NCBI GenBank assembly: GCA_017640785.1
Contig: JAEPPZ010000011.1
Coordinates: 62,001-126,000, forward strand
Direction: 5' to 3'
Source: Balneola sp.
GTDB taxonomy: Bacteria; Bacteroidota; Rhodothermia; Balneolales; Balneolaceae
Length of the DNA stretch: 64,000 nt
This document shows, one piece after another, positions 14,530-33,620 of this stretch (positions are counted from its first letter, which is position 1; every line of letters starts with the position of its first letter). Below the pieces are notes generated by a model. The model saw nothing but the letters and a program-made list of their open reading frames with translations. It was not told where the DNA came from and made no database searches. The position numbers were made by a program, and so were the translations under genes.

Positions 14530-17370
14530 TTGCAGCAGAATATTATTGTCAGAGGCGCACGAGAGCATAATCTTAAAAATTTTGATATAGACATTCCCCG
14601 GGATCAGTTTGTAGTGATTACGGGTTTGTCGGGCTCCGGAAAATCATCCCTGGCCTTTGACACTATTTATGCTGAAGGACAACGCAGATTTTTGGAATCA
14701 CTTTCTGCTTATGCCCGCCAGTTTTTAGGAATGATGGAGCGCCCTGAAGTAGATTTTATAGACGGACTTTCTCCGGTAATTTCCATCGATCAAAAAACTA
14801 CGAACCGTAATCCACGCTCAACGGTAGGTACGGTTACCGAGATCTACGACTTTCTCCGATTGCTTTATGCCCGAGTCGGTATTCCTTATTCTTATGTTTC
14901 TGGAAACAAGATGGAAAAGCAATCAGCGGATCAGGTTGTAGCTTCGGTGATGGATATGCCTGAAGGAAGCAAAGTTTATTGTTTAGCTCCGGTTGTACGT
15001 GGACGAAAAGGGCATTACAGAGAGTTATTTGAGCAGACCATCAAGCAAGGGTTTTTAACTGCCAGAGTTGATGGAGAGTTGGTTGAGTTGGAGGAAGGCT
15101 TAAAGCTTGATCGATACAAAACTCACAATATTGAAGTGGTCGTCGACCGGTTTGTGATCAGCCCTAAAAGTGAAAAGAGAATTTCGGAGAGTATCCGTCT
15201 TGCACTGGAAATGGCTGACGGAAATGTAATCCTTGCCACTAAAAAGGGCGATGATTTTGAAGATCGGTTATTTTCTCAGAAGTTGTTCGATGCAGAAAGT
15301 GGAATCGCTTATGAAGATCCTGCCCCAAATCTTTTTTCATTCAATTCCCCGTATGGTGCTTGTCAAACTTGTGATGGGCTGGGAAGTACTTATGATGTCA
15401 GTTGGGAGCTGTTGGTTCCGAATAACGAACAGTCGATCGAAGATGGCGGTCTCAGATATTTAGGTGCTCCAAGAGATGTGTTTGTGTTCAAACAATTGAA
15501 AGCTGTTTTGGAAAGCATCAACAAAGATTTCGAAACACCTTTCAAAAAGTACTCCAAAGAAGATCTTGATCTGTTGATGAATGGAGGCGGAGATCATAAA
15601 TATTCAGTCAGCTATGAGTTCAAAGACAGTAATGTAACCTACAAGCATAAGTTTGAAGGATTGCGAAAGATGATCATTGATCAGTATGAAAACAGCAAGT
15701 CTCCGAAGCAAAGAGACAAAGCTAAAGCATACATGAGTAAGATCACTTGTCCGAAATGTGGGGGCGGACGATTAAATCAGGAAGCACTTTCGTACAAGAT
15801 CGATGGATATAATATTCACGACCTGGTACAAATGGATATTGACGGAATTCGGGACACGCTGTATGGAATCAAACTTAGCGAACGACAGCAGCTCATTGGT
15901 AGTCAAGTATTAAAAGAGATCAGAGACCGACTGGATTTCTTGCTCAATGTAGGACTGGATTATTTAAATCTGGACAGAGAAGCACAGACCCTCAGTGGTG
16001 GAGAAGCACAGCGTATCAGATTGGCAACCCAGATTGGAACGCAGCTTGTAGGAGTTCTCTATATTTTGGATGAGCCGAGTATTGGTTTACATCAAAGAGA
16101 TAATATCAAACTGATCAAATCTTTAGAAATGCTCCGTGATCTTGGAAACAGTGTGCTTGTAGTTGAGCATGATCGGGAAACGATTGAACATGCTGACTTT
16201 GTAGTTGATATGGGGCCGGGAGCAGGAGTAAATGGCGGACATATTGTTTCTGCAGGAACACCGGATGAATTGGCCAAAGACTCGATGACTGCTAAGTTTC
16301 TCCGTGATGAAGAGATCATCGAACTCCCTGAAAAGTATCGAAAAGGCAATAAGAAAAAGATCACTATAAAGAATGCCCGGGGACACAATCTTCAGAATGT
16401 TGATCTGAAAGTGCCTCTTGGGAAATTCATTTCCGTAACCGGAGTAAGTGGTAGCGGAAAAAGTTCATTGATCAATCAAACATTGGTTCCGATTCTTTCT
16501 AATCATTTTTATAAATCCAAAAGTGTTCCCCTTCCTTATGATACGGTGGATGGATTGGACAATATTGACAAGATCATTTCTATAGATCAAAGTCCGATCG
16601 GCAGAACTCCAAGATCAAATCCGGGAACGTACACCAAAGTGTTTGATCATATCAGAAGATTGTACGCCGAGCTTCCGGAATCTAAGATTCGGGGATACGA
16701 TCAGGGAAGGTTTTCTTTCAACGTAAAAGGCGGAAGATGTGAAACTTGTCAAGGGGATGGAGTTCGAAAGATCGAAATGAACTTCCTTCCTGATGTTTAC
16801 GTGACTTGTGAAACCTGTAATGGAAAACGATATAATCGCGAAACGCTGGAGATCTTTTATAAAGGAAAAAGTATTTCTGATGTGTTGAAGATGCCAATTT
16901 CCGAATCTGCAGAATTTTTTGATGCACAACCGGCAATCAGCAGAATTTTAAAAACGCTCACTTCTGTTGGATTGGGATATTTAACACTCGGTCAATCCAG
17001 TACTACACTTTCAGGAGGAGAGGCACAACGTATAAAACTGGCAAGAGAGCTTTCCAAGATTGGCACCGGAGATACCCTTTATGTGATGGATGAGCCAACT
17101 ACAGGATTACATTTTCAGGATGTTCGAATGTTAGTGAATGTTATCCAGAAGTTAGTAGACAAGGGAAATACGGTAATGGTGATTGAGCATAACCTTGATC
17201 TCATTAAAGCAGCAGACTGGATCATAGATCTTGGTCCGGAAGGCGGAAAAAGCGGTGGAGAAATTATCGCGGAAGGAACTCCGGATAAAATAGCTAAAGT
17301 TGAAAAATCACATACCGGCAGATTTTTGAAGCAGGAGTTTGAGAGACTCAATAAGGCTGTTGCAGTGTAA
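14530..17370 (+). CDS. uvrA: excinuclease ABC subunit A (UvrA)
   Basis: 946 residues from a TTG start, which places [20 protein letters not shown] exactly at the usual UvrA N-terminus. It is the damage-recognising ABC ATPase of nucleotide excision repair. Walker A motifs are [20 protein letters not shown] and [14 protein letters not shown]. Signatures are [14 protein letters not shown] and [16 protein letters not shown], with the Walker B motifs after each. The C-terminal zinc module CETCQGDG with CETCNGKRY is present. In the first half [10 protein letters not shown] is present, but the partner Cys-x-x-Cys expected about 20 residues earlier is replaced by a stretch without Cys ([11 protein letters not shown]). 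Confidence 0.98.
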
Positions 17371-17461
17371 GAAATAAATCTTCAATTTTTTTCACTCGCA
17401 CTTCTTTTGAATTTCGGAACCTTTTTCGTTTTTTGTGCTGATTAAAAAATTACGGGGATTT

Positions 17462-19369
17462 ATGAAGGGGTATAAGAAGCTACTCGCACTAAGTGTGTTT
17501 ATGGTTATTGCTTTTCCAAGTTTGGGGCAATCGATAGTTAATTATGAATCTTATTTTGATAATTATCTTGTTCGAAATATTGATAGAGAAGATGGTCTTT
17601 ATAGAGATGAAGTATATGATACCTATCAAGATTCTCTGGGTTTTATTTGGATAGCTAACTACGCTTTTCTTTTTAGGTATGATGGTATAACCCTTAAACA
17701 GTATCAATATGATATTGACCGAATGGGAGTATTTACCGAGTTCAAAGAAGACAACTCAGGAAATGTTTGGATTCCAGGAACTGGGCAAGGGTTGAGAAGA
17801 ATAAACTCTGATAAATCGTCAACTACTTACGATGAAAGTAATGGAATAACCGGTACATCACTTAGAAATGTCGCATTTACAAAAGGTGACTCGGTGGTCA
17901 TTGGCGATTTTCTAAACGGTATATTCATTATGCATGAAGATACGGTATTAACAAACCTAAAAGTTGAAAATGGCTTAGCCGGCAATCGTGTTTATAAAAT
18001 TATAAATGACTCAAAAAACAGAATTTGGGTAGGAACCGATAAAGGTCTTTCCATTTTATACAAAAATGAGATTATAAATTTTGATTCAAATAATGGGTTA
18101 GGGGAAAATTCTGTTTTAAGCATTTATGAAATGCAAAACGGGGAAGTTTGGGTAGGAACCGACGGAGGCGGAATTACAATTTTTAGTGATTATAAACCAA
18201 AAGAAAATTTAGACCTGTCTGATGGAATAAATTATATGTCGACCGAATTTATTACTGAAAGAATTAGTGATAAATCGATATGGTTAGGTCATAGTGGAGG
18301 AGGTATTGATAAGATTACTGAAAATAAAGTCGAAAATCTTTCAACAGAGAATGGACTCCTTTCAGATTATGTATCGTCAATTAAGTTTGGTGAAGCAGGC
18401 AATATATATGTAGGCACAGAATTTGGTTTATCTATTCTGATTCCAAAAAAGATGAAATTTAAACCTGTACTAGATGATGACTTCAGTAATGCTGCAATCA
18501 ATGGAGTAGCAGAAGATCTTAATAATAATCTTTGGGTTACTACAGCAGGTGATGGGATATATGTAAATCAAAACAGTAAATGGAAACAACTTCCAAGTAC
18601 CCAAAATCTTGGAGCTTTGACAATTCTCCCAATTACATCTGAAAAAATAATAATAGGGACTGTAGGTGACGGTATCTATTTAATTGAAAATGATGAAGTT
18701 GTTAAGCGAGTAAATTCCGAAAATGGGTTGTTGGGAGATGAAATTACATGTTTGGCTCAAGACCTTTATAACAATGTTTGGGTAGGAACTTTTTACGGTA
18801 TCGCTGTTTTTGATACAAATTTGCAGAAGCTTCAGTCGTTTACAGAAGAAAGTGGACTACCCGGTCAGGAATGCCTTCAAATGATAAGTGACAAAAAAGG
18901 TAACGTATGGGTTGGTACACTTAATGATGGTATTCTAAAGTTTAAAGAGGACAAGCTTGTTTCACAAATTGATACATCGAATGGATTAGTAAATAACAGA
19001 ATATTTGGGCTTTATGAGAATATAAAAGGGGAAATTGTTGCAACAACAATTGATTATGGCTTTCATTTTATTGAAAATGAAAAAGTAACACCTATTCCCG
19101 GAATACCTGATACGTTTGTTGGGATTAATCAAGATAAGTTTGGAGATTATTGGTTTACTTCGAATGGCTTTATAGTAAAATTAGAAGAAAAAGATTTAGA
19201 ACTATACTTTGATGGAGAGATCACACGTCCACTTTATAAAAAATACACTACTGAAGATGGGCTGCCTCAAACCAGATTTGCATATGGGAACAGTTCGGTT
19301 TCGGAGATAAGCTCTACAGGTGAGATACTTTTTGCTGCAAAAAAAGGAATTATAGCAATCGATCCCTAA
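17462..19369 (+). CDS. periplasmic two-component-regulator propeller (N-terminal half of split sensor kinase)
   Basis: 635 residues from the ATG at 17462; a GTG at 17435 is in frame but the ATG gives a clean signal peptide ending at SLGQ. Repeated units such as DSLGFIWIA, NRIWVGTDKGLSIL, GEVWVGTDGGGITIF, NVWVGTFYGIAVFD and NVWVGTLNDGILKF are Reg_prop blades forming two seven-bladed propellers. In intact homologues these sense an extracytoplasmic signal. If translation ends at the TAA, the product is a soluble periplasmic propeller without Y_Y_Y, membrane or kinase parts. Confidence 0.7.
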   Translation: MKGYKKLLALSVFMVIAFPSLGQSIVNYESYFDNYLVRNIDREDGLYRDEVYDTYQDSLGFIWIANYAFLFRYDGITLKQYQYDIDRMGVFTEFKEDNSGNVWIPGTGQGLRRINSDKSSTTYDESNGITGTSLRNVAFTKGDSVVIGDFLNGIFIMHEDTVLTNLKVENGLAGNRVYKIINDSKNRIWVGTDKGLSILYKNEIINFDSNNGLGENSVLSIYEMQNGEVWVGTDGGGITIFSDYKPKENLDLSDGINYMSTEFITERISDKSIWLGHSGGGIDKITENKVENLSTENGLLSDYVSSIKFGEAGNIYVGTEFGLSILIPKKMKFKPVLDDDFSNAAINGVAEDLNNNLWVTTAGDGIYVNQNSKWKQLPSTQNLGALTILPITSEKIIIGTVGDGIYLIENDEVVKRVNSENGLLGDEITCLAQDLYNNVWVGTFYGIAVFDTNLQKLQSFTEESGLPGQECLQMISDKKGNVWVGTLNDGILKFKEDKLVSQIDTSNGLVNNRIFGLYENIKGEIVATTIDYGFHFIENEKVTPIPGIPDTFVGINQDKFGDYWFTSNGFIVKLEEKDLELYFDGEITRPLYKKYTTEDGLPQTRFAYGNSSVSEISSTGEILFAAKKGIIAIDP

Positions 19370-19579
19370 GAAGCTTTATTAAATACAGAATATTTTTTTC
19401 CATATATAGACTATTTAAAAATAAATGGAGAATCGGTACCTATTGATAAAACTTCGGATCTAAGATTCGATCCATCGGCTACTAAGTTTGAAATTTCATA
19501 TTCAGCACTAAATCTTAATGCTCCTGAAAAAACTGAGTTTTTTATTCAACTGGAGGGGGTTGATCAAGATTGGGTTTCC

Positions 19580-20461
19580 ATGGAGGATAGAAAGACCGTC
19601 TATTATGACTTTCTGCCCGATGGTGATTATACATTTATAGTTTCGGCTATTGGTCCCGACGGACAATGGAGTGATAAAACAGCGAGTATCAGTTTTACAG
19701 TTCTTCCTCCTTTTTACAAAACCTGGTGGTTTATGTCGCTAGGCTTGCTGGGCTTTATAGCTATTGGCGCAGGCGGTGTTCAAATTCGTTCAAATATGAA
19801 GCTTCAAAAGCTAAACAGGGAGTTGGAAACACAACAAAAAATACAGAAAGAAAGAGAAAGAATATCCAGAGAGCTACACGATAATGTGGGCTCACAGATC
19901 ACTAATTTGATAACCGGAATTGAAGTAAGTAATCTTCATGTAAAAAAGAATCAACAAGACGAAGCTCTTTCATTATTAGAAAATCTGGATAGTGACGCGA
20001 GAGGTGCGATGACTGATTTGCGAGAAACCATCTGGCTGCTTGATAAGGAGATGGTTGAGTTTGGAGCCTTTGTTGAACATCTGAATGGTTATTTAAATCG
20101 CCAAAAACGTTATTTAAAGGGCTTAGAAATAAAGCTAAACTCCTCAATTGATAATGGGTGTGTGCTAGAACCCGGACAATCGATGAATCTTACCCGCATA
20201 ATTCAGGAAGCTTTAAATAATTCCAGAAAGTATGCAAAGGCTAGCGAGTTTATCATTTCTTTTAGATTAGAAAACCAAAAACTCTATGTTAGTTTAGTTG
20301 ATGATGGTAAGGGAATGGATCTTGATGAAGAGATCAATAAAGGGAATGGAATAAAAAACATGTCCCACCGAGCAGAAGAAATGGATGCCAAATTTCAAAT
20401 AAAATCTGATGGAGCTTCGGGAGTTGAAATTGAAATGTCTTTCGAGGTAAAAATACCCTGA
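19580..20461 (+). CDS. Y_Y_Y C-terminus plus HisKA_3 histidine kinase (C-terminal half of split sensor kinase)
   Basis: Up to 293 residues from the first ATG after the stop, which lies inside the Y_Y_Y domain, so this is not a natural gene start. It contains the end of Y_Y_Y (DGDYTFIVSAIGPDGQW), a membrane helix (WWFMSLGLLGFIAIGAGG), HisKA_3 with phospho-acceptor His in ISRELHDNVGSQ, and HATPase boxes NNSRKYAKA (N box) and DDGKGMD with GNGIKNMSHRA. The kinase core is very close to that of the TPR kinase at 21245-23053. If expressed by re-initiation, it would be an unregulated kinase fragment. Confidence 0.6.
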   Translation: MEDRKTVYYDFLPDGDYTFIVSAIGPDGQWSDKTASISFTVLPPFYKTWWFMSLGLLGFIAIGAGGVQIRSNMKLQKLNRELETQQKIQKERERISRELHDNVGSQITNLITGIEVSNLHVKKNQQDEALSLLENLDSDARGAMTDLRETIWLLDKEMVEFGAFVEHLNGYLNRQKRYLKGLEIKLNSSIDNGCVLEPGQSMNLTRIIQEALNNSRKYAKASEFIISFRLENQKLYVSLVDDGKGMDLDEEINKGNGIKNMSHRAEEMDAKFQIKSDGASGVEIEMSFEVKIP

Positions 20462-20470
20462 TAAGGGTAT
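20453..20470. promoter_or_regulatory. ATACCC-N6-GGGTAT inverted repeat (NarL-like 7-2-7 site)
   Basis: A perfect inverted repeat with spacer TGATAA spans the end of the kinase gene and lies 34 bp before the response-regulator ATG. Written as heptamers it is TACCCTG-AT-AAGGGTA, the 7-2-7 spacing of NarL-family boxes. The same hexamer pair occurs twice more, at 25817 and 25856. Autoregulation is inferred. Confidence 0.6.
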
Positions 20471-20503
20471 TCTGTTTTCTGTTGGTTTTTAGTTTCTTAA
20501 AAT

Positions 20504-21172
20504 ATGAGTATAAAAATAGCCATAGTTGAAGACCAGCAGAAGATCATCGATCGTCTTATACAAAGACTTTCTTTTTTTGATGATATTGAAATCCTTTTCA
20601 CAGCCTCAGGAGGTAAACAGGCAATGGAATATCTGGAGAAACTTTCTCCTGCTGATTTGCCTAAAGTGATTTTAATGGATATCGAAATGCCCGGAAAATC
20701 GGGAATAGAGTTAACCGCTATAATCAAACAGCACTATCCGGAGATCGATATTTTGATTCAGACAGTGTTTGAGAATGACGAAAAAATATTCAAATCTATT
20801 CAGGTTGGTGCTTCCGGTTATTTATTAAAAGACGACCCTATTCAGAAGTATGTAAATGCTATTCATGAGCTGGCGGACGGAAAGGCAGCATTATCTCCAC
20901 TAATAGCTTCAAAGGTGATGAATTTTGTAAAAAAGTCTACTCAATCTAAAGAAGAACAGGCAAAGGAAACACAACAAGAATTCTCATTAACAGATAGAGA
21001 AATAGATATTCTGAAAGGCATTGTTGAAGATTTAACTGAACATCAAATTGGTGAAAAACTTTTTATCAGTCATCATACGGTTAGAACTCATATCAAGAAT
21101 ATCTACAAAAAATTGCACGTCCACTCAAGAGCATCCGCTGTAAGATTTGCCATTTCTAAAGGACTGGTTTAA
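20504..21172 (+). CDS. NarL/FixJ-family response regulator
   Basis: 222 residues. The receiver domain (1-120) has IVEDQQK, the phospho-acceptor Asp59 in ILMDIEMPGKSG, and YLLKDDP. The LuxR-type helix-turn-helix (about 155-220) has LTDREIDILKGI, HQIGEKLFISHHTVRTHIKNIYKKL and a typical tail. It sits between two histidine kinases of the matching HisKA_3 class, which are its likely partners. A 7-2-7 inverted repeat lies in its own promoter region, and two more lie between the divergent OmpA-like and T9SS-cargo genes, which suggests it controls itself and surface proteins. Confidence 0.92.
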   Translation: MSIKIAIVEDQQKIIDRLIQRLSFFDDIEILFTASGGKQAMEYLEKLSPADLPKVILMDIEMPGKSGIELTAIIKQHYPEIDILIQTVFENDEKIFKSIQVGASGYLLKDDPIQKYVNAIHELADGKAALSPLIASKVMNFVKKSTQSKEEQAKETQQEFSLTDREIDILKGIVEDLTEHQIGEKLFISHHTVRTHIKNIYKKLHVHSRASAVRFAISKGLV

Positions 21173-21244
21173 AACTGATTTTCAATTTGAAAATGTAGAC
21201 TCTTTTTTTATTTTTTTTCCAAAATTAAAGGGGTTTACAGGAAA

Positions 21245-23053
21245 ATGAGGAAAAAAGTACTATTGGGATGGTTGATTCTGTTTGTTTCAACATCCTTTTG
21301 TAAAACAGTATTGGGGCAAAGCCGATCTGATATCGAATCTAAAATTGACTCAATTGCAAACATAGGCTTTGTTGAATTGACCTCCTCTCCACAGAAATAT
21401 GAAGCACTATTTTTAAAAGCATTAAGCGACGCAGATTCCCTTAATTTAACTCATCACTCTGCTGTATTGAATTCTCAACTTTCTACAATTTATTCTTATT
21501 TAGGAAAGGCAGGTTTAAAAATCGAGTATAAATTAAATTCAATCCGTTTATATGAAGAACTTGACTCGTTGAAAAAAGCCGGATATGAATATGCGGAATT
21601 AGCATGGATGTTGAGAAAATCTGATTTAGATAAATCGGTTCAATACATGCGAAAAGGGTTAGCCATATTATCAGGATACGCGGGGTCTATTGAACAAGCT
21701 AATGCATTTAATAATTACGGGTTAATAAAACTGTCAAAGAAAGAGCCGGACAGTGCATTATATTTTATAAATAGGTCATTAAACATAAAGGAGAGCTTGA
21801 ATGACACCCTGGGAATAGCCTATTCACATAGCTATATAGCTAATGTATATATGGAAACGGGACAGTTTCAAGAAGCAATAAATAAGCTTGATCAAGCAAT
21901 TGAAATAAGGAATACTATCAATGATAAATCAGGAATTAGTATTGATCTGGTAAATGCCGGGATGTCTTATATGACAATTGGGGAGCTTGAAAAAGCACTT
22001 AAATATTTAAAAAGATCATTATTGCTTGCATACGAAACTGAGAATATAGGTTTAGCTTCGTTTGCCTTTAATACCATATCGAATACATTCGAAGAACAAG
22101 GCAGGTATGATTCAGCACTAGTCTATTATAAATCCTTTAACAACTTTAGTGATAGCCTTGATGAAGCTAAGTACAATGAAAGGATCGCTGAATTAGAGGT
22201 GCAGTTCCGCACTGAGGAAAACGAGAAAGAGCTTGCCCAAAAAGAAGCAGAATTAACTCAGGAACAATTAAAGGTTAAAAGAAGAAGTTGGACTACTGGC
22301 ATATTTGGACTTTTATTTTTTTCAATAAGCTTCATTTCAATTCTATTTATCAGGCAACAAAAAATAAAGAGAGAGAACCTGATCAAAGAAAAGGATTTAA
22401 AGTTAAAATTAGCCAGTGCAGAGCTAGAAAATAAAATCCATCAGGAGAAAGAAAGAATATCTCGTGATCTACACGACAATGTGGGCTCTCAGATCACCAA
22501 TTTGATTACTGGAATAGAGATCAGCAATATGCACATAGCAAAGGGGCAACAAGAACAAGCCGGAATGCTGTTAAAAAATTTAGATGAGGATGCTCGAAAC
22601 ACAATGACGGACCTCAGAGAGACGATTTGGTTGTTGGATAAAGAAAAGGTGAGATATCAGGATTTTGAGAAACACTTGAAGGCATATATCCAACGACAGG
22701 AACGCTATTTCCATAATTTGGAAGTAATAATAGAATCAAAAGTACAAGAAGATTTGGTTTTTGACCCTTCCATATCATTAAACCTGATGAGAATTATTCA
22801 GGAAGCTTTAAATAATGCAAGAAAATATTCAGAAGCGAATGAGATCTTGATATCATTAATTTCAATTGAAAACCAGTTTGAAGTTGCAATAAAAGACAAT
22901 GGAAAAGGGATGGAATTAGATAAAGAATTGAATAAGGGTAATGGATTAGAAAATATGTTTTCCAGAGCAAAAGAAATGAAAGCAAAGTTTGATATTATTT
23001 CTTCTCCACAAAAAGGAACGGAAGTAAAGTTATCCTTTGAGTATGAAATCTGA
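21245..23053 (+). CDS. tetratricopeptide-repeat sensor histidine kinase (HisKA_3)
   Basis: 602 residues. Signal peptide (about 1-25), then TPR repeats across about 60-310 (AFNNYGLIKLSKKEPDSALY, YSHSYIANVYMETGQFQEAI and similar), a coiled coil, one membrane helix (about 353-370, TGIFGLLFFSISFISILF), then HisKA_3 with His in ISRDLHDNVGSQITNLITGI and a HATPase domain (NNARKYSEA, DNGKGMELD, GNGLENMFSRA). The kinase core is closely paralogous to the kinase at 19.9 kb. TPRs in the periplasm suggest sensing of a protein or peptide. It follows the response regulator by 72 bp and may be its only intact kinase. Confidence 0.9.
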   Translation: MRKKVLLGWLILFVSTSFCKTVLGQSRSDIESKIDSIANIGFVELTSSPQKYEALFLKALSDADSLNLTHHSAVLNSQLSTIYSYLGKAGLKIEYKLNSIRLYEELDSLKKAGYEYAELAWMLRKSDLDKSVQYMRKGLAILSGYAGSIEQANAFNNYGLIKLSKKEPDSALYFINRSLNIKESLNDTLGIAYSHSYIANVYMETGQFQEAINKLDQAIEIRNTINDKSGISIDLVNAGMSYMTIGELEKALKYLKRSLLLAYETENIGLASFAFNTISNTFEEQGRYDSALVYYKSFNNFSDSLDEAKYNERIAELEVQFRTEENEKELAQKEAELTQEQLKVKRRSWTTGIFGLLFFSISFISILFIRQQKIKRENLIKEKDLKLKLASAELENKIHQEKERISRDLHDNVGSQITNLITGIEISNMHIAKGQQEQAGMLLKNLDEDARNTMTDLRETIWLLDKEKVRYQDFEKHLKAYIQRQERYFHNLEVIIESKVQEDLVFDPSISLNLMRIIQEALNNARKYSEANEILISLISIENQFEVAIKDNGKGMELDKELNKGNGLENMFSRAKEMKAKFDIISSPQKGTEVKLSFEYEI

Positions 23054-23063
23054 ATTCCAGAAA

Positions 23064-23095
23064 TAAAAAAGGCCACAGACTACTAATCTGTGACC
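23064..23095 (-). terminator. terminator of the OmpA-propeller gene
   Basis: On the minus strand GGTCACAGA pairs with TCTGTGGCC (one mismatch) and is followed by TTTTTT. A second perfect hairpin, AGTGACC-AAAA-GGTCACT (23104-23121), lies between it and the stop codon. The pair also insulates the convergent TPR kinase gene. Confidence 0.8.
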
Positions 23096-23137
23096 TATTC
23101 AGGAGTGACCAAAAGGTCACTTTACTATGTTTAGTAT

Positions 23138-25726
23138 TTAGAATGCCAAACCTGCTCTCAGCATGACGCCGGTTCCTGCATCACTGTTTTGTAAAGAAAG
23201 ACCACCCGTTATAAACTTGAAACGAGCACGGGCTCCTAGTTCCAGCCAATTTTGCGCTTCAGCCATACCAGTTGTAATGTTTCCGTTACCATCCGTTTCA
23301 GTATTAGGTTCAATGTCCAATAGACTAAAAAGGTTATAGTTGTAAGAAGCATAAGGGGAAATTTTGATATCAGAAACTACAAGGTTGTATCTGACTCTGG
23401 CCATCAAAGGAACGCCAATGCCCGATCTGTAAATGGTTTGAGTAGCTGTATTACCGCCTCCGGTGTCAATGGTGTTTTCTTCCTTGTTAAAAACAAGATA
23501 TGCACTTAATCCATAATCAAAAGAAAGAGGCAGGCTGGTTAATTCACTCAAATCTGAATATTTGTTCCACTCTATTCCACCACCTACAGCATCACCCAGA
23601 AAGTAAGCCCAAATGTTTCTTTCGCCGTTTACATCTCCACTGTAAAAAGCTACACCGGCTCCGCTTACATTGGGATAACCATGTGCACCTTTACCGGAAT
23701 GGGTAATAAAACCAATGCTACTACCGGTAAAAGCGTTGTCAGCAACTTCAATAGAAGAATTGCCGCCGGTAGTTACTCTTACATTTCCCGGAATGTCACC
23801 ATAGCACGCTGATCTGGCTGGTATTCCTCCACGGAATGCAGCATTTCTATATAATTGATACAGATTTTCTTGGATCACTTCCTCCTCTTCGGATTGGCTA
23901 AGGTCGATATTTCCATCATCCAAGACGTCGCCTGTTCCTTCACGTTGGTAATTATTACTAAGCACTTTTATTTCTACACGACGGTTTTCTTGTCGTCCTT
24001 CTTCTGTTTCGTTATCGGCAATTGGTTCTGATTCTCCATATCCTTTCGCCTGAATACGTTCTTCAGCGATTCCACGATCAATTACATAGGTGCGAACTGC
24101 TTCAGCGCGAGATTGGCTCAGACGTTCGTTGGAGTCTTCTCTTCCTACATTATCGGTATGCCCACCAATTTCGATTACTAAACCGGATTTCTCCATAATA
24201 TCGAACAATCGATTCAATTCTTCTTGGCTTTCATCTCGGAGGTTTGCACTACCGGTATCAAAGTAAATATTGCGTAGTACGATGCGGGCACCTTCTGTAG
24301 CTTCATTTAGCTGGAGGTCTTTTTTAACTTCCGAAGATCCGTCTTCAGAATCTGCACCTTCTCTCAAATCAAGTACTTGGGTTTGGAAGAGATAGCCTTT
24401 TTGATTTGCAGTAATCAAGTATCTTTTTCCATACGGTAGAGTAACCAAATATTCCCCGTTTACAGCGTCGCTAGTGATGTAGCCTAGCTGTTCGTTAGTG
24501 TCAAGGTCGCTCCAGAAAAGTGTAGCTTTAATGGGTTCATTATCTTGATTTGTAATAACACCTGAAATATTAACTACAGGTTCAGGACGGAATTCCTGAG
24601 GGATTGGCATTCTGAACAAATCACTTTCTCCATAGCCGTCGTTGTTGTTTCCAGTCGTATTTCGGTTAAAATAAAGATAAGAGCCAGATGACGGCACAGA
24701 AATGTATAGGTCATTTAGTACAGTGTTAACTTCTTTACCCATGTTTTCGGGTGTGGTCCAATTATCCCAACCATCACCAATTCTACGGGTTATAAATAAA
24801 TCATACCCTCCAAAGCTCGCATGACCTGTAGAAGAAAAATATAATGTCCGTCCGTCAGAGCTCAAATATGCTCCACGTTGATTACTTTTTTGCAGGTTAA
24901 TACTCGAAGGAAGTTTCTTTGGGGTTGTCCATGCACCATTTATAAGTTGGCTAATATAGATGTCGTAGTGATCGCCACTTCCGCGGCCAACTCGATTTTC
25001 TTCTGAAGTAAATAAAAGAGTTTTTCCATCTGGCGAGATAGTTACATCGGCTTCAAAGTATTTGGAATTAATTCCGCCGCCCATATTACAAGGTGTTGTC
25101 CAGCGGTTACCTTGATTGTAGCTGTAAAATAAATCGCCACCACCGAAATAGCCGTCGTAGTTTCCAAAAAGGATCATCATATTTCCATCATTGCTGATAA
25201 TCTCCGGAGCTTCATTTCCGGTTGTAGTTATTGGGGAAGGCATCAAAGAAGGTCGTTGCCATTCTCCATTTGCTCCACGATTAGAAACCCAAACGTCTTC
25301 TCCACCTCGTCCTCCGGGTCGGTCGCTTGAGAAAAAATAGAGCCTGTTGCCGTCAGCACTGATTCGCGGACTGCTTTCTCCGTATTGAGAATTTATCCCA
25401 TCACCAAGGTTTTCTACTTTAATATCTTCTATTGGTTTGCGAAGAATAGAAATGAGTTCATTTACCTGGGCTTTATTTGCTGATTTAAAACCATCACGAT
25501 AAGCTTCATACATTTCAATTGCTTTATCCCAATTTTTTAGAGCAACATAACTTTTTGCAGCCCATAGGTAGTATTCGGGATCGTCTGCCGCTGCTCGTTC
25601 ATATCTGACAGCTGCCTGGTCATATTTTCCGTCATTGTAAAGATCTGCTGTTGATTGGGCACTTACTTCAATTGTAAGATATCCGGTAAACAGTATCAGA
25701 ACTGATAGGTATTTTAAGATTTTCAT
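23138..25726 (-). CDS. TPR-PD40 propeller-OmpA outer-membrane protein with C-terminal barrel-like extension
   Basis: 862 residues. Signal peptide ending near VSAQ; TPR-like N-terminus (about 25-110, YDQAAVRYERAAADDPEYYLW); PD40 WD40-like propeller (about 120-390, ISADGNRLYFFSSDRPGGRG, ISPDGKTLLFTSEENRVGRG); a carboxypeptidase-regulatory-like domain (about 400-460); OmpA peptidoglycan-binding domain (about 480-590) with GGHTDNVGRED, LSQSRAEAVRTYVIDRGI and RRVEIKVL. This is the order of the T9SS component PorE. The last 260 residues are extra: Gly-rich alternating strands ending in Phe (MLRAGLAF), like an outer-membrane barrel. There is no lipoprotein Cys. It is divergent from the T9SS cargo gene and shares its promoter region. 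Confidence 0.85.
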   Translation of the reverse strand: MKILKYLSVLILFTGYLTIEVSAQSTADLYNDGKYDQAAVRYERAAADDPEYYLWAAKSYVALKNWDKAIEMYEAYRDGFKSANKAQVNELISILRKPIEDIKVENLGDGINSQYGESSPRISADGNRLYFFSSDRPGGRGGEDVWVSNRGANGEWQRPSLMPSPITTTGNEAPEIISNDGNMMILFGNYDGYFGGGDLFYSYNQGNRWTTPCNMGGGINSKYFEADVTISPDGKTLLFTSEENRVGRGSGDHYDIYISQLINGAWTTPKKLPSSINLQKSNQRGAYLSSDGRTLYFSSTGHASFGGYDLFITRRIGDGWDNWTTPENMGKEVNTVLNDLYISVPSSGSYLYFNRNTTGNNNDGYGESDLFRMPIPQEFRPEPVVNISGVITNQDNEPIKATLFWSDLDTNEQLGYITSDAVNGEYLVTLPYGKRYLITANQKGYLFQTQVLDLREGADSEDGSSEVKKDLQLNEATEGARIVLRNIYFDTGSANLRDESQEELNRLFDIMEKSGLVIEIGGHTDNVGREDSNERLSQSRAEAVRTYVIDRGIAEERIQAKGYGESEPIADNETEEGRQENRRVEIKVLSNNYQREGTGDVLDDGNIDLSQSEEEEVIQENLYQLYRNAAFRGGIPARSACYGDIPGNVRVTTGGNSSIEVADNAFTGSSIGFITHSGKGAHGYPNVSGAGVAFYSGDVNGERNIWAYFLGDAVGGGIEWNKYSDLSELTSLPLSFDYGLSAYLVFNKEENTIDTGGGNTATQTIYRSGIGVPLMARVRYNLVVSDIKISPYASYNYNLFSLLDIEPNTETDGNGNITTGMAEAQNWLELGARARFKFITGGLSLQNSDAGTGVMLRAGLAF

Positions 25727-25816
25727 ATTGTACTCCTGAAAGTATACCTCGCAGTAAATTTTTGCGAAGTGGTTAAAATTGATATAGAAATATGCCTGTA
25801 AATCAGAAGTGTAGAA

Positions 25817-25834
25817 ATACCCGACTCAGGGTAT
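25817..25834. promoter_or_regulatory. ATACCC-N6-GGGTAT inverted repeat, site 2
   Basis: Spacer GACTCA. It lies 91 bp before the OmpA-like start (minus) and 117 bp before the T9SS-cargo start (plus), with its centre 39 bp from site 3. As heptamers: TACCCGA-CT-CAGGGTA. Confidence 0.6.
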
Positions 25835-25855
25835 AATCGATTGAAAATCAGAAAA

Positions 25856-25873
25856 ATACCCCGAACAGGGTAT
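25856..25873. promoter_or_regulatory. ATACCC-N6-GGGTAT inverted repeat, site 3
   Basis: Spacer CGAACA. It lies 78 bp before the T9SS-cargo ATG and 130 bp before the OmpA-like ATG. As heptamers: TACCCCG-AA-CAGGGTA. With site 2 it forms a tandem pair in the divergent promoter, a common layout for NarL-family control. Confidence 0.6.
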
Positions 25874-25950
25874 GTATTGTAAATGACATGTACGGTTAAT
25901 TGTGGCACCCTAAATAGGGAGGAGTGACTATTAAATTAAAACAAACTGTT

Positions 25951-28900
25951 ATGAAGCATTACTACAGAAAACTCAAGAAGAACATACTTTTAATTACAGG
26001 TTTAATGCTGCTTTCGGCGATTACACACACAGAGCTAAAAGCTCAGGTTGTTGCCGGAGTAGATACACTAAGCAAAATTTCAGGAACTTGGCAGTATTAT
26101 GATTTTACAAGCCAAAAAGCTTTTTCAATTGAAGACACCGCAACATACACGCCCGATTTTTGGGGCAGTAGTAACGAAGGAGTAAACTTTGGAAAAGAGT
26201 TCTCATCATTAATTCCGGGAAAAAGAGTATTGCTTTTAGGATCCGGAAATATTGATACCGTAACAACAGTGCCAACCTGGACAGATGCCGCTCCTTGGGT
26301 TGATACAAGTTGGGACTTTACAAATGGTACCCAAGGTCAGCCAATTTCACCGGGACAACTTTGGGTAGTTTATACCAGCGAAGGTTTATACGCTGTGATG
26401 CAAATAGATGCTTTGCCGGGAGGGAATTTTGGAGATAGTTTTGTTTTTAAATACAAGTATATGAGCGAAGGTGGTACCACTTTAGATGAAACAAATTTGA
26501 ATTCATCTGACCAATTAGTTGGTTCTGCAACCAGTAGTTCAGGAAACGGTTTTGACCTGTCTGGAGAGATATCAGGTGAGCTTGAAGATGCCGGAGATTA
26601 TTTACCTGATTTTGTCTTTGTAAATAATGAAGGAGTCAATTTCGGTAATGAGGGAAGTACCTCACTTTCTTCCACAGGTAGAAGATTTATGCTTTTAGGA
26701 ACTGGAAATTTAGATACACTCAAATCAGTTCCTGCTAGAACCGATGCAGCACCTTGGGTAAGTGTCTCATATGACTTTTCAGATGGAACAGGAGGCCAGC
26801 CTATTGCTGTAGGACAATTATGGGGAATTTATACCAGAGAAGGAAATTATGCTGCAATTGAAATAACTGCATTACCGGGAGGTAATTTTGGAAGCTCTTT
26901 TGATTTCAACTACAAATATCAACCGGATGGGAGTCGGTTTTTTGAAGAATCCGAATTTCAAGATCCTGATCCGGTTCTGTCGATCGCAATTGAAAGTGGG
27001 AATAATCAAACAGCCGATCTAAGTTCACAACCTGCAAATCCAATTGTAGTATTGATCACTGATCAGGATGGAGCAGTTGTAAGTGGTGAGACCGTTAATT
27101 TTGAAATTACTAACGATCCGATAGGAGTAAATGAAGAGGGAACAGTTACCCCGTCTGATGTGAGCGATGCTTCAGGTTTAGCAGAAGCAACTGTTACTGT
27201 AGGGGACAAAGAAGGTATTTATACTGTAAAAGCATCTTTAGCTTCAGATGATACCAAGTTTGTGGAATTCGCAATAATCGCAGAGGAAGAAGTGACCGGA
27301 CCGCAGCCAACTACACTTGTGATTACGGGTGGACAAAATCAGGTAACGGTATTGGGAGATACCATTGCAACTTCTTTAGAGGTTGTTGTGATCGATGATA
27401 TCGGCGAACCAATGAATGGCATCACGGTAACATTCGAAGAAGAGACTATTCCAGATGGAGCAGTTTCAGGCAGCTTTTTTACACCGGATGGAATAAATGT
27501 AAATCAGGCTACAACATTTAATAATCGTGCATACATGGATTATTCATTAGGCGACAAACAAGGTGATTATCTGATCAAAGCATATCTGGCCAATTATCCT
27601 GCCGTTGATTCAGTCGTATTTACAGTTTCAGGAGAGCTGGTAAAAGCGCCAATGAACTTTACTGCTAATGCCCAATCAGGAGTAATAGATTTGATGTGGG
27701 ATGTTGCTGAGGGGGCTAAAGAATACAACATTTACAGAGCATTGAATGATGATAATCCTGCGAGTGCATCATTGTTAGCGACCATTTCCGGTAATGTGTC
27801 AACAGACGATAATGTAACCCCGGGGGAGACCTATTTTTACCGTGTATTCAGTGTAGATGCGTTTGGGAATGAAAGTGAGCTTGGAGCCGGACCAGTTAGT
27901 GCAACTCCTGAAGTTGTGGGTGATGTAGTAATGGGAACAGCAACTATCATCAAAGATGAAGGAGCGTGGCAGTTTTTCGATTTCTCTACTCAATCAGTGT
28001 CAAACCAAGAAGAAAATGGTGGATTTGTTGCTGATTTCAGAGGAACAAGTAATGAAGGTGTAAACTTTGGGAGAGAAGGAGCTCCATCTATTTCAGGAAA
28101 CCGGATCATTCTTCTTTCTGGAGAAAATCTAGAAAGTGTTTCAGAAATTCCATCTTGGACAAACGAAGAACCTTGGATTGGAACTACGTGGGACTTCTCA
28201 AACGGAACAGGTGGGCAGCCAATATCAGTTGGTCAGCTTTGGGGAGTTTATACCAGTGAAGGACATTATGCAGCTATGGAAATTACAGAAGTACCCGAAG
28301 CATTTGGTACCAGTTTTTCTTTCAAATATAAGTACCAACCTAGTGGTTCAAATCAATTTGAGGAAGTAGAGCCGTTGATCCCAAGTGCATTATTAAAAAT
28401 TTCCGGAGATGAGCAGATCGGAAATCCTGAAAAAGCACTGGCTCAACCATTAATGGTGCAAGTAGTGGATGAAAATGAAACTCCTGTAGAAGGTATATCA
28501 GTAAATTTTGCCGTAACTAAGCTTCCCGAAGCAGCAATGAGCTGGGGGCTAAGCGCGAACTCTGTAATTACAAATTCAGAAGGGCAAGCCAGAGTTATAC
28601 TTACACTCGGAGACAAATTAGGAGAATACGAAGTTACCGCCTCTGTTGATGAACTTGAGTCTGTGGTATTCAGCTCTTCCGCAGTTGAAATTCCTGCCCC
28701 TGATGCTGTGACCTTACTTGAGGTCAGGGATGGTTTCCGGGCAAACAGCTTGATGCCTCTTTGGACGCAAAGTAATAGCGAAAATTTCCTTAGATATCGC
28801 ATATATATGAGTACTGAAGGTGGAGAATTGATGCTAGTTGATTCAACTCGTACAGGAAATCTGTTCACACAGGACACTGCTAAAACTATAAATGATTTGA

Positions 28901-30993
28901 CGGCACTTCAGGATTATTCATTTGCAGTAACAGTAGTGAATGCGGATCTGCAGGAAAGTGAGTTGTCCAACATACTAACTAATTTCCCAAAACCGGTTCC
29001 TGATCAACCTAAAGATGTAGTTGCAACAGCAGGCGACAAAGCCGTTCAATTAAGTTGGGCAGCAAACGACAGTGCTTACTTTGATTATTACTATGTGTAT
29101 TCAGGACTAGATGGATTCGGTGTTTTTGCAAACGATACTTTGTATGGATACAATAATACAAGTCTCGTGATCAGCGGATTAGAAAATGATCAAACATATC
29201 AATTCTATGTAATTGCTGTAAACAGATTCGGGCAGGAAAGTAGTTTTCCTGAAAAGATAACAGCTATTCCGACTTCTACATACGAGGAGGAAGAAACAAC
29301 ACTTCCGAATTTGATAAACGGGATCTCTTCCTGGGCTGATACCGATAATGATGGAGATTTAGATCTATTGATCACCGGTCAGGAAGGCAATGATGAAGAC
29401 CCGCAAACACTTTTACTAACAAATGATGGTACAGGCGAACTTACAAATTCAGACCAAACATTTGAAGGAGTTGCCAATAGCACCGTATTTTGGTTCGATA
29501 TCGATCAAAACGGGTATGTTGACTTGGTACTCTCAGGTGAATCAGCAACTGGTCCGGTTACTAAAGTGTATCTGAATAACGAAGGTACATTTACGGACTC
29601 TGGATTTTCTTTACCCGGATTCGAGGATGGAATAGTTTCCCCGGCTGATTATGACAGTGATGGCGATATAGACTTTCTTGCTGCGGGGACCGTCGATGGG
29701 AACCCTCAAACTTCGCTTATTAAAAATATGGGTTCCGGCATATTTGAGCCTGTTGCCTTTGGCTTCGCAGGTTTTAGTATGCCCGCTGCAAGTTGGGGAG
29801 ATGCTAATGCTGATGGAAAGCCTGATCTATTTATCACAGGAGCTGATTCTGACGGAAATATTGATGCTATCTTATATATGAACTTAGGGAGTGACTCTTT
29901 TGTAGCGTCTGAGTCCGTTTTTCAGGGTGTCATAAACGGTACAGTAGCATTCACCGACTTTGACTTAGATACAGATCAGGATATTCTGATTACGGGTTAT
30001 ACTGATGCAGCTGAAACAAATTTGTTTACAGGCTTCTATGAAAACACAGGAACAGGATTCGATCTGTTCTATTCAACCAACTCAAATCAGTCGGATAAAA
30101 GAAAGGTTGGCGGACTTTTGAAAAGCCGGGCTGTTGTTGGGGATTACGACAATGATGGTGATCCGGATGTGTTGATCAGCGCTGAAGGTGAAGCAACTAT
30201 ATTTAATAACAACCGTGGCGATATCAACGAAGAAAAACTGAATGTATCAGGCGCAGGCTCAGTAACATGGGTAGATTATGATGGCGACGGTGATTTGGAT
30301 ATAGTTATATCAGGAGCCAGCTCAAAAGTCCTTTCAAATAACACTTCCATTAAAAATACTGCACCATCTGTGCCAGAAGGTTTAATGTTTACTACTGCCG
30401 GGGATACTGTTAATTTAATTTGGAACGCCTCTTTAGATGCGCAAACTCCAACTAAATCCTTAACATATAACGTTCGAATTGGTACAAGTCCCGGAACTTC
30501 TGATGTGCTTTCCGCTAATTCTGATCTTAGCACAGGAAAGCTAAGAACTCAGGCAAATGGAAATGCAGGCTACAAAACTTCATTATCCTTAAGAGGTTTG
30601 CCAAATGGTACTTATTATTGGCAGGTTCAGGCAGTTGATAATGGATTTATGGGATCAATGTTTTCTCAAGAACAACAATTTGATGTGACACTGAGTACCG
30701 TTTCGAATGAAAACGAACAAGTTATTCCTTTAACAACAGAGTTAGCTCAAAACTATCCGAATCCTTTTAATCCAAGCACTACTATAAATTATACGCTTAA
30801 AAATGCCGGTCCGGTAAATATAAGAGTGTACAATGTTACAGGGCGTTTGGTACAGGAACTCGTTAATGATAGAAAGAGCGCGGGCGAACATGTTGTAAGC
30901 TTTGATGCCAGTAATTTAGCCAGCGGTATATATATCTATAGGCTACAAGCCGAAGGGAAAGTTCTAATAAGAAAGATGACACTCATAAAGTGA
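25951..30993 (+). CDS. giant T9SS-secreted protein with triple repeat, Ig-like, FN3 and FG-GAP domains
   Basis: 1,680 residues from the ATG at 25951 (a GTG at 25924 is in frame but abuts GGAGG with no spacing). The signal peptide ends at LKAQ. Three copies of a 120-residue module (nt about 26060-26475, 26550-26935, 27935-28350) share NEGVNFG, LLLGSGN, APW, GQPIS-GQLW and VYTSEG words. Bacterial Ig-like (invasin type) domains with VNFEITNDPIG and a LGDKxGxY motif alternate with fibronectin III domains. An FG-GAP/VCBS region (nt about 29330-30350) has Ca-binding DTDNDGDLDLLITG loops. The C-terminus is a type A sorting domain (NYPNPFNPSTTI, VYNVTGRLV, LASGIYIYRLQ). It is probably a surface adhesin or matrix protein; the 120-residue module is unnamed to me. 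Confidence 0.85.
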   Translation: MKHYYRKLKKNILLITGLMLLSAITHTELKAQVVAGVDTLSKISGTWQYYDFTSQKAFSIEDTATYTPDFWGSSNEGVNFGKEFSSLIPGKRVLLLGSGNIDTVTTVPTWTDAAPWVDTSWDFTNGTQGQPISPGQLWVVYTSEGLYAVMQIDALPGGNFGDSFVFKYKYMSEGGTTLDETNLNSSDQLVGSATSSSGNGFDLSGEISGELEDAGDYLPDFVFVNNEGVNFGNEGSTSLSSTGRRFMLLGTGNLDTLKSVPARTDAAPWVSVSYDFSDGTGGQPIAVGQLWGIYTREGNYAAIEITALPGGNFGSSFDFNYKYQPDGSRFFEESEFQDPDPVLSIAIESGNNQTADLSSQPANPIVVLITDQDGAVVSGETVNFEITNDPIGVNEEGTVTPSDVSDASGLAEATVTVGDKEGIYTVKASLASDDTKFVEFAIIAEEEVTGPQPTTLVITGGQNQVTVLGDTIATSLEVVVIDDIGEPMNGITVTFEEETIPDGAVSGSFFTPDGINVNQATTFNNRAYMDYSLGDKQGDYLIKAYLANYPAVDSVVFTVSGELVKAPMNFTANAQSGVIDLMWDVAEGAKEYNIYRALNDDNPASASLLATISGNVSTDDNVTPGETYFYRVFSVDAFGNESELGAGPVSATPEVVGDVVMGTATIIKDEGAWQFFDFSTQSVSNQEENGGFVADFRGTSNEGVNFGREGAPSISGNRIILLSGENLESVSEIPSWTNEEPWIGTTWDFSNGTGGQPISVGQLWGVYTSEGHYAAMEITEVPEAFGTSFSFKYKYQPSGSNQFEEVEPLIPSALLKISGDEQIGNPEKALAQPLMVQVVDENETPVEGISVNFAVTKLPEAAMSWGLSANSVITNSEGQARVILTLGDKLGEYEVTASVDELESVVFSSSAVEIPAPDAVTLLEVRDGFRANSLMPLWTQSNSENFLRYRIYMSTEGGELMLVDSTRTGNLFTQDTAKTINDLTALQDYSFAVTVVNADLQESELSNILTNFPKPVPDQPKDVVATAGDKAVQLSWAANDSAYFDYYYVYSGLDGFGVFANDTLYGYNNTSLVISGLENDQTYQFYVIAVNRFGQESSFPEKITAIPTSTYEEEETTLPNLINGISSWADTDNDGDLDLLITGQEGNDEDPQTLLLTNDGTGELTNSDQTFEGVANSTVFWFDIDQNGYVDLVLSGESATGPVTKVYLNNEGTFTDSGFSLPGFEDGIVSPADYDSDGDIDFLAAGTVDGNPQTSLIKNMGSGIFEPVAFGFAGFSMPAASWGDANADGKPDLFITGADSDGNIDAILYMNLGSDSFVASESVFQGVINGTVAFTDFDLDTDQDILITGYTDAAETNLFTGFYENTGTGFDLFYSTNSNQSDKRKVGGLLKSRAVVGDYDNDGDPDVLISAEGEATIFNNNRGDINEEKLNVSGAGSVTWVDYDGDGDLDIVISGASSKVLSNNTSIKNTAPSVPEGLMFTTAGDTVNLIWNASLDAQTPTKSLTYNVRIGTSPGTSDVLSANSDLSTGKLRTQANGNAGYKTSLSLRGLPNGTYYWQVQAVDNGFMGSMFSQEQQFDVTLSTVSNENEQVIPLTTELAQNYPNPFNPSTTINYTLKNAGPVNIRVYNVTGRLVQELVNDRKSAGEHVVSFDASNLASGIYIYRLQAEGKVLIRKMTLIK

Positions 30994-31802: not shown

Positions 31803-33620
31803 ATGCAAGGAAACGGATTTAAAATTGGTCTCATATTCGCCTTTTTGGCTTTGACATTATGGTACCTCTTCCCAACCATCCAGTATAATCTGGAACAGAA
31901 ACAAATAAGTGACCTTTCTCCATCTGACAGTGCTCAATATGTAGATGAGAACAGAGAAAAGTTAGCAAGCCTTAAAGAGCGAACACTAAACCTTGGTCTT
32001 GATCTGCAAGGTGGAATGTACGTTATGCTTGAAGTAGGAACGCCACAGTTGATTCTTGAACTGGCTGGTGAAAACAGAGACGAGGAATTGGAGCAAGTAG
32101 TTGCCAGTGCAAGAACAACAGCTTTGGCAAACGACACTGACTTCATCGATGAAATGGCTACAGAATTTCAATCACAAGGAGAAGGAGCCAGATTAAGTCG
32201 CTATTTCAGAAATGATGCGGCAGAAATTACTCGTCGTTCTACCAACGAAGAGATCATTACGTTCTTAAAAGCGCAAAGAACAGAAGCGCTGGACAGAGCT
32301 ATTGAAATTATCCGTACTCGTGTGGATAGATTCGGTGTAACTGAACCATCCATTGTAAAACAAGGAACGGACAGAATCGTAGTTGAGCTTCCTGGTGTAG
32401 ATGATAAAGAACGAGTTCGTAATCTTCTGAAAGGAACCGCCCGTCTGGAATTCAGATTGGCAGCCAACGCTAATGATTTCAGTTCTTTCATCAATCAGGT
32501 ATATGATTATTTCGATCAAAAAGCTGCCGGTGAAGAAGGTGATTCTTTGGATACAATTCAGCCAAATGCTCTGTTGGAAGTTCTTATTCCAAGTCAGGGA
32601 AGCCCATATGTTCTTGGATATGCTGAAGAACAAGACACCGCAGAAGTAAATGCGCTATTAAACGATCCGGAAATTGATCGTATGCTACCAAGGAATACAA
32701 CCATTATGTGGAGCGCAAATACGCAGCCATATACTCAGGGTGGAGCTGAGGTTTTTTCTCTTTATGGAGTAAAAACGGATATTGAAATGACCGGTGATGT
32801 TATTGAAGAAGCAAGCGTTCAGTTTGATCCTACAACTAACGTTCCTGAAGTTTCAATGACTATGAATGCAGAAGGAGCCAGAGATTGGGCAAGAATTACA
32901 GGAGCCAATATCGGTAAACCTGTGGCAATTGTTCTGGACGGTTTTATATACACCTATCCAAATGTGATTTCCAAGATAAGTAACGGTCGTTCATCTATTA
33001 CCGGCGTTGAAAATGTTGGCGAAGCCGATGACTTGGTAAACATTCTGCTTTCAGGTGCGCTTCCTGCTCCGTTAGAGATTGTTGAAGAGCGTACTGTTGG
33101 TGCTTCACTTGGTCAGGCTTCCATTGATGCGAGTTTAAACTCTGTATTAATTGGTTTATCGATCGTGGCAATTTTTATGATCGTGTATTACCGAACAGGT
33201 GGTGCAGTTGCTGACTTGGCATTGTTACTGAATATCGTGTTCATCTTAGGAATTTTAGCAGGCTTCAAAGCTACATTAACACTTCCCGGAATGGCAGGTA
33301 TCGTTCTGACTATTGGTATGGCGGTAGATGCAAACGTGCTGATCTTTGATCGTATTCGTGAGGAGCAACGCACAGGAAAAACTATCAAAGCTGCAATTTC
33401 AGCAGGATATTCTAATGCGATGAGTGCTATTATTGATGCGAACATTACAACTGGTTTTGTAGCATTAGTTCTTTTGAGTTTCGGAGTTGGTCCGATCAAA
33501 GGATTCGCTGTAACACTGCTTGCAGGTATCTGTTGTTCATTATTTAGTGCAATTATTATCACTCGTGTAGTGGTAGACTATTTGACTCGCGCTAAATCTG
33601 ACGCAGTAAACTTCGGTTAA
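31803..33620 (+). CDS. secD: protein translocase subunit SecD
   Basis: 605 residues. It is part of the SecDF complex that uses the proton gradient to help SecYEG export. N-terminal helix, then LGLDLQGGMYVMLEV (signature), a long periplasmic P1 domain with IIRTRVDRFGVTEPSIVKQG and DRIVVELPGVDD, and the six-helix C-terminal part with RTVGASLGQASIDAS, MAGIVLTIGMAVDANVLIFDRIREE and the final membrane block. P1 is longer than in E. coli SecD. secF follows after 37 bp. Confidence 0.97.
   Translation: MQGNGFKIGLIFAFLALTLWYLFPTIQYNLEQKQISDLSPSDSAQYVDENREKLASLKERTLNLGLDLQGGMYVMLEVGTPQLILELAGENRDEELEQVVASARTTALANDTDFIDEMATEFQSQGEGARLSRYFRNDAAEITRRSTNEEIITFLKAQRTEALDRAIEIIRTRVDRFGVTEPSIVKQGTDRIVVELPGVDDKERVRNLLKGTARLEFRLAANANDFSSFINQVYDYFDQKAAGEEGDSLDTIQPNALLEVLIPSQGSPYVLGYAEEQDTAEVNALLNDPEIDRMLPRNTTIMWSANTQPYTQGGAEVFSLYGVKTDIEMTGDVIEEASVQFDPTTNVPEVSMTMNAEGARDWARITGANIGKPVAIVLDGFIYTYPNVISKISNGRSSITGVENVGEADDLVNILLSGALPAPLEIVEERTVGASLGQASIDASLNSVLIGLSIVAIFMIVYYRTGGAVADLALLLNIVFILGILAGFKATLTLPGMAGIVLTIGMAVDANVLIFDRIREEQRTGKTIKAAISAGYSNAMSAIIDANITTGFVALVLLSFGVGPIKGFAVTLLAGICCSLFSAIIITRVVVDYLTRAKSDAVNFG

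Follow-up and report, generated by a model that had tools for sequence, protein, structure and literature searches.

The closest described counterpart of the regulatory elements considered here is the NarX/NarL system of Escherichia coli, in which the response regulator NarL binds, as a dimer, to 7-2-7 sites consisting of two inverted heptamers 2 bp apart (PMC4549865, PMC7419079). The consensus sequence of the NarL heptamer is TACYYMT (PMC4886647). At ogt, NarL acts as an activator through 7-2-7 sites at −44.5 and −77.5 (PMC7419079); at frdA, it acts as a repressor through one near the start (PMC4549865). In Bacteroidota, two-component control has been tied to type IX secretion (T9SS) through the PorXY-SigP system of Porphyromonas gingivalis (PMC4800418, PMC8265659). 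By its description, that system differs from the locus presented below: PorX/PorY and SigP control genes of the secretion machinery, whereas here a regulator with a NarL-type helix-turn-helix (HTH) domain adjoins, and probably controls, a single cargo gene and a gene for an OmpA-propeller protein. Little is known about how individual T9SS cargo genes are regulated. The open literature that we found deals with the control of the machinery by PorXY-SigP, and a search of it, with most subscription papers outside its scope, found neither a NarL-type regulator of T9SS cargo nor a TACCC operator in Bacteroidota. The type of operator and switch is known; the small circuit for T9SS cargo is, as far as we found, undescribed.

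The locus is part of a 64,000-nucleotide stretch of Balneola sp. DNA, called the window below. It is flanked by frames encoding UvrA on the upstream side (14530-17370, Pfam) and SecD on the downstream side (31803-33620, NCBIfam). In the relatives, open reading frames (ORFs) of comparable size and with similar endings occupy the corresponding positions, their families being assigned from context. Its first component is a histidine kinase, in which a periplasmic sensor half with a Reg_prop β-propeller (17435..19369, + strand) is followed by a kinase half comprising the end of the Y_Y_Y domain, HisKA_3, and HATPase_c (19580..20461, +; both assigned with Pfam). The next gene (20504..21172, +) encodes a 222-residue response regulator that we termed RR-A. 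Its receiver (Response_reg, 69 bits) and GerE HTH (67 bits) domains are both above the Pfam cut-offs, making RR-A a NarL/FixJ-type regulator. Its relatives in the PDB include VraR, NarL, DesR, and DevR, and it aligns to the NarL, VraR, and DesR structures. RR-A scores below the cut-off of the NarL equivalog model NF007935 (117.5 bits vs 250).

RR-A is followed by a second histidine kinase with TPR, HisKA_3, and HATPase_c domains (21245..23053, +; Pfam), whose best NCBIfam match is FimS at 113 bits, far under the FimS cut-off of 600. In the FimS-FimR system of P. gingivalis, a LuxR-type regulator controls surface structures; these are fimbriae, as opposed to the T9SS cargo of the present locus. 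The minus strand then encodes an envelope protein (23138..25726) with the TPR-PD40 propeller-CarboxypepD_reg-OmpA domain order of the PorE and CHU_0125 OmpA-propeller proteins (Pfam, NCBIfam). The initial annotation called this protein PorE-like. It is indeed related to PorE, but it lies far under the cut-off of the PorE model (T9SS_PorE NF052230, 183 bits vs 600) as well as that of CHU_0125_OmpA (228 bits vs 620), and it carries an extra C-terminal region past residue 590. Divergently transcribed from it is the gene of a 1680-residue T9SS type A cargo protein (25951..30993, +; FG-GAP, Big_1, fn3, Por_Secre_tail, assigned with Pfam), whose C-terminal sorting domain is above the cut-offs of both TIGR04183 (NCBIfam, 44.7 bits, cut-off 23) and PF18962 (49 bits, cut-off 27). 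As the start codon, the ATG at 25951 is more compatible with a signal peptide than is the GTG at 25924. The RR-A locus of genomes G028 and G020 lacks the OmpA and cargo genes.

Three copies of the palindrome ATACCC-N6-GGGTAT, to which no strand is assigned, are found in the window, and an exact search agrees with the initial annotation that there is no fourth. We refer to them as operators 1–3. Operator 1 (20453-20470; AAATACCC-TGATAA-GGGTATT), supported by the motif search and by conservation in orthologues, precedes the RR-A gene, where it is a putative autoregulation site, and overlaps the final codons of the upstream kinase frame including its stop codon. Operator 2 (25817-25834; ATACCC-GACTCA-GGGTAT) and operator 3 (25856-25873; ATACCC-CGAACA-GGGTAT) are located in the OmpA/cargo intergenic region, on the OmpA and cargo sides of the divergent promoter, respectively. 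The positions agree with the earlier description of the sites as adjoining either the response-regulator gene (operator 1) or the promoter region shared by the OmpA-propeller and cargo genes (operators 2 and 3).

When tested for its commonness at random positions, the site proved to be rare. Dinucleotide-preserving shuffles of the window contained no exact ATACCC-N6-GGGTAT, and the genome (3.39 Mb, 18 contigs) contains three exact copies, all of them at the RR-A locus. The 10-base core TACCC-N6-GGGTA is present four times genome-wide, with three copies at the RR-A locus and the fourth (C10:429363) within an ORF and without A/T flanks on both sides. A control pattern, the reversed sequence, had eight matches across the 92 Balneolaceae genomes and none in the Balneola sp. 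genome itself; because it is so rare, three sites within 5.4 kb greatly exceed chance expectation. Sites with two mismatches occur in the window at chance level (12 observed vs 10 expected from shuffles), and the signal thus resides in the near-perfect sites. A one-mismatch site at C1:111605 precedes a gene that is absent from all nine relatives searched.

All three operators fit TACCCNN-NN-NNGGGTA, i.e. inverted heptamers with a TACC core and 2-bp spacing. The engineered narG −89/−89 site used as an electrophoretic mobility shift (EMSA) oligonucleotide for E. coli NarL, TACCCCTAAAGGGGTA, is an exact instance of this pattern (PMC4549865). The layout had been described as exactly that bound by NarL/FixJ regulators, which is accurate for the 7-2-7 geometry and the TACCC core but not for heptamer positions 6 and 7. 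The half-sites (TACCCTG/TACCCTT, TACCCGA/TACCCTG, and TACCCCG/TACCCTG in operators 1, 2, and 3, respectively) do not match the full TACYYMT consensus, only the first five positions being reliable. The locus resembles NarX/NarL in having a NarL/FixJ regulator, inverted TACCC heptamers 2 bp apart, and paired sites as at ogt (PMC7419079). It differs in belonging to another phylum, in its targets, which are surface or secreted proteins, and in its sensor, which is a periplasmic propeller or TPR kinase.

Orthologues of RR-A are present in nine of the 92 Balneolaceae genomes, the genome under study included, and share 55–98% identity. In each of the nine, the site is found 34–35 bp ahead of the RR-A start, exact in eight cases and with one mismatch in G028, so that the predicted conservation next to the regulator extends to every RR-A orthologue found. 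In pairwise comparisons of eight orthologues, the ten-position core of operator 1 is 97.5% identical, compared to 30% for the preceding flank on the coding side and 44% for the downstream flank; the consensus reads AATACCCTGA..AGGGTATT. Members of the same genus that lack RR-A (G001, G003–G006) have no exact site. Regulators of Ignavibacteriae and Chlorobi with 48–50% identity carry a one-mismatch site 37–40 bp upstream. We refrain from proposing that an autoregulatory palindrome is universal in the family, since of 109 related regulators put to a palindrome test only 16 reached p ≤ 0.05, against about 5 expected, and the RR-A group was prominent among these 16.

The palindromes might alternatively act as RNA hairpins, in a terminator or attenuator, and not as protein-binding DNA. 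Any palindrome can fold, an interrupted T-rich stretch follows operator 1, and many exact matches inspected in other Balneolaceae resemble the stem of the tRNA-Ser variable arm. The core changes found across species (in G028, L068, L070, L071, site 2 of G078, and site 2 of G032) are, however, all one-sided and pair-breaking with none compensated. As the sequence was kept rather than the pairing, we regard the hairpin reading as very improbable. It also fits poorly with the location of two palindromes in a divergent promoter region and of one before an unlinked cargo gene, described below.

Exact sites in Balneolaceae genomes without RR-A were considered as a wider regulon, and this candidate was rejected. 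More than half of the 22 loci inspected share the nearly identical context CGAACCCTCGATACCC....GGGTATACTCCCTTAG, which looks like the long variable arm of tRNA-Ser, and the remainder are mostly within ORFs. The tRNA-Ser-like stems (L200, L206–L208, L211, L212, L214–L219, and L221) are false positives for motif scans.

At the divergent promoter, operators 2 and 3 are retained together in five species (G000, G002, G030, G078, and G032; G007 is nearly identical to G000), with a core identity of 0.94 for operator 2 and 1.00 for operator 3, and of 0.27–0.49 for the flanks. Their spacing from each other ranges from 39 to 46 bp among the species. Operator 3 is separated by a constant 20 bp from a GGTTAATTG/GGTTATTTG element (25894..25902, +), whose columns are invariant in the five species and which may represent a −33 element of the cargo promoter. 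Operator 2 is separated by a constant 23 bp from ATATTT on the OmpA side; this AT element (25789..25793, −; AATAT on the + strand) occupies columns −29 to −25 from operator 2, is likewise invariant in the five species, and is a possible promoter element. This arrangement suggests one operator per promoter in an activator position. Since each operator keeps a constant spacing to a conserved promoter-like element downstream of it, RR-A most likely functions as an activator at the divergent promoter, where the sequence makes activation more likely than repression. In G032, the OmpA gene is lost, yet a start-like sequence, apparently the OmpA start region, and both operators persist before the cargo gene (L147:17323-17549), as if the OmpA gene had been deleted.

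At operator 1 the geometry is different. The 33-bp gap to the RR-A gene leaves little room for a promoter downstream of the operator, and RR-A may therefore act there by repression, or the transcript may be nearly leaderless. The operator, only 33 bp before the ATG and overlapping the kinase stop codon, could lie between promoter and start codon, and RR-A could repress at least its own gene, much as NarL represses frdA from a near-start 7-2-7 site (PMC4549865). Set against this are the fixed spacings upstream of promoter-like elements at the divergent promoter, which are as for an activator, and the activation of ogt by NarL from −44.5 and −77.5 (PMC7419079). On balance we consider RR-A acting as a repressor to be unlikely, if clearly worth keeping in mind, and favor activation at the divergent promoter, whereas either sign may apply at operator 1.

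The association of the site with the cargo gene does not depend on linkage to RR-A. A homologue of the cargo protein is encoded in seven of the 92 genomes, every one of which has RR-A. In G020, the homologue (2803 residues) is on contig C8 and RR-A is on C4, and the cargo gene still carries an exact site, TACCCTGATCAGGGTA, 85 bp before its ATG. That genome has two A/T-flanked sites in total, one at RR-A and the other at the cargo homologue. In G028, where RR-A is present but a cargo homologue was not found at the threshold applied, the sole exact site precedes a different T9SS cargo gene. G024, G030, and G032 contain further exact sites in intergenic regions, roughly 56–69 bp before genes whose start codons were picked by eye; judging from their N-termini, the products are mostly lipoprotein- or envelope-like and constitute candidate members. 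The regulon is conserved across species in that the site is retained at orthologous genes, within otherwise diverged sequence, and also at a target that is not linked to RR-A.

The regulon is also small. The question of whether other T9SS cargo genes carry the site has a negative answer in the Balneola sp. genome: it encodes 48 T9SS cargo proteins above the cut-off, and the 47 others have no exact site, since all exact sites are at the RR-A locus. A T9SS sorting domain at C10:330288-330515 of this genome ends a 7440-codon open frame, which would encode an exceptionally large putative surface protein.

RR-A has a paralogue, which we termed RR-B (44–47% identity; C16:41390-42049 in the genome under study). 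Most of the examined genomes that have RR-A also encode RR-B, as do several other genomes; it lies in operons with the order kinase, RR-B, T9SS cargo (L155, L153, L154, L151, L189, L161, L157, and L158). Diverged 7-2-7-like sites of the TACC..TTCGGG type precede both RR-B (TACCAAATTCGGGGTA and variants) and its cargo gene (TACCCCATTCGGGCGATT and variants). The HTH of RR-B is very similar to that of RR-A, with a nearly identical recognition region, and, given the related sites, the two regulators may cross-bind. A third flavor of the motif, AATACCT-N6-AGGTATT, is located 50–64 bp before a conserved gene of a 368-residue outer-membrane protein (L195:4722-4737, equivalent to C11:133721 of the genome under study, and L241–L251). 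It is kept in most genomes checked, including genomes without RR-A, which implies that other regulators may read similar sites. Judging by these sequences, 7-2-7-like geometry is probably read by more than one regulator and, consequently, not every related site can be assigned to RR-A.

Operators 1–3 could thus be genuine and yet be read mainly by, or shared with, another NarL-type regulator such as RR-B, a reading to which the similarity of the recognition regions, the related sites of the RR-B operon, and the existence of a related operator in genomes without RR-A lend some weight. G001 and G003, however, possess RR-B and are devoid of RR-A, the cargo homologue, and the exact site alike, and in most RR-B operons the sites differ consistently from RR-A sites (TACCNCNTTCGGGYGAT-like). 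We therefore judge another main reader to be improbable and retain RR-A in this role.

An in-frame TAA (19367-19369) splits the propeller kinase (17435-20461) just before its Y_Y_Y region; in the relatives G007 and G002, this kinase is a single intact ORF. The initial annotation's view that a single two-component system operates here is too simple, as the propeller kinase is interrupted and a second, TPR kinase follows RR-A. With the propeller kinase broken in this genome, the TPR kinase may feed RR-A. Compared to the sister genome G007, the DNA of the locus is 96% identical from 19484 on and 95% identical up to 17558, but the intervening sensor segment (17559-19483) shows only about 34% protein identity. 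This segment is shared by G007 and the more distant G002 at 96%. The OmpA protein is similarly heterogeneous: its residues 1 to ~664 (23735-25726, −) are 41–73% identical between the genome under study and G002, compared to 83–100% for its C-terminal part and about 96% for the cargo protein. The N-terminal version of G002 is nearer to that of G030. The OmpA-propeller protein is a second mosaic propeller protein at the locus. The simplest reading of these sequence comparisons is that propeller modules have been exchanged between species by recombination over a fixed output; a chimeric assembly is the alternative.

Considering (i) the uniqueness of the palindromes in the genome, (ii) their conservation at RR-A and at the cargo gene, even where that gene is unlinked, (iii) the co-distribution with RR-A, and (iv) their likeness to NarL sites, we hold with considerable confidence that the three palindromes are operators of RR-A, bound by the phosphorylated dimer in the 7-2-7 manner, through which the regulator controls the OmpA and cargo genes as well as its own. 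The suggestion that the regulator sets the expression of a secreted and an envelope protein, as a putative regulon, is supported by these properties. We propose the following model. Upon phosphorylation, RR-A would bind each site as a dimer, as NarL does (TACCCNN-NN-NNGGGTA). Through operator 1 it would control its own gene, and through operators 2 and 3 the divergent OmpA-propeller and T9SS cargo promoters, with one operator for each. We infer from the sequence comparisons that RR-A itself is the binding protein, that its binding depends on phosphorylation, that activation prevails over repression, and that the signal would be sensed by the periplasmic propeller kinase, the TPR kinase, or both.

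In this locus, a small regulon is legible from sequence alone: an operator, a regulator, and three targets, two of them adjacent and one in trans. The motif provides a starting point for linking other NarL-type regulators of Bacteroidota to genes for surface proteins, and the sensor modules, apparently exchanged over an unchanged output, would offer a clean case for the study of two-component re-wiring. More tentatively, and with somewhat more doubt than belief, it may be supposed that Balneolaceae possess dedicated NarL-type systems, each paired with its own T9SS surface protein via drifting 7-2-7 operators (TACCC/GGGTA for RR-A and TACC..TTCGGGYGAT for RR-B), in which the regulator and operators are kept while the kinase and OmpA propeller modules recombine between species, and that this design perhaps extends more widely in the Bacteroidota-Chlorobi-Ignavibacteria. 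If true, this would amount to modular inputs feeding an unchanging surface-protein output.
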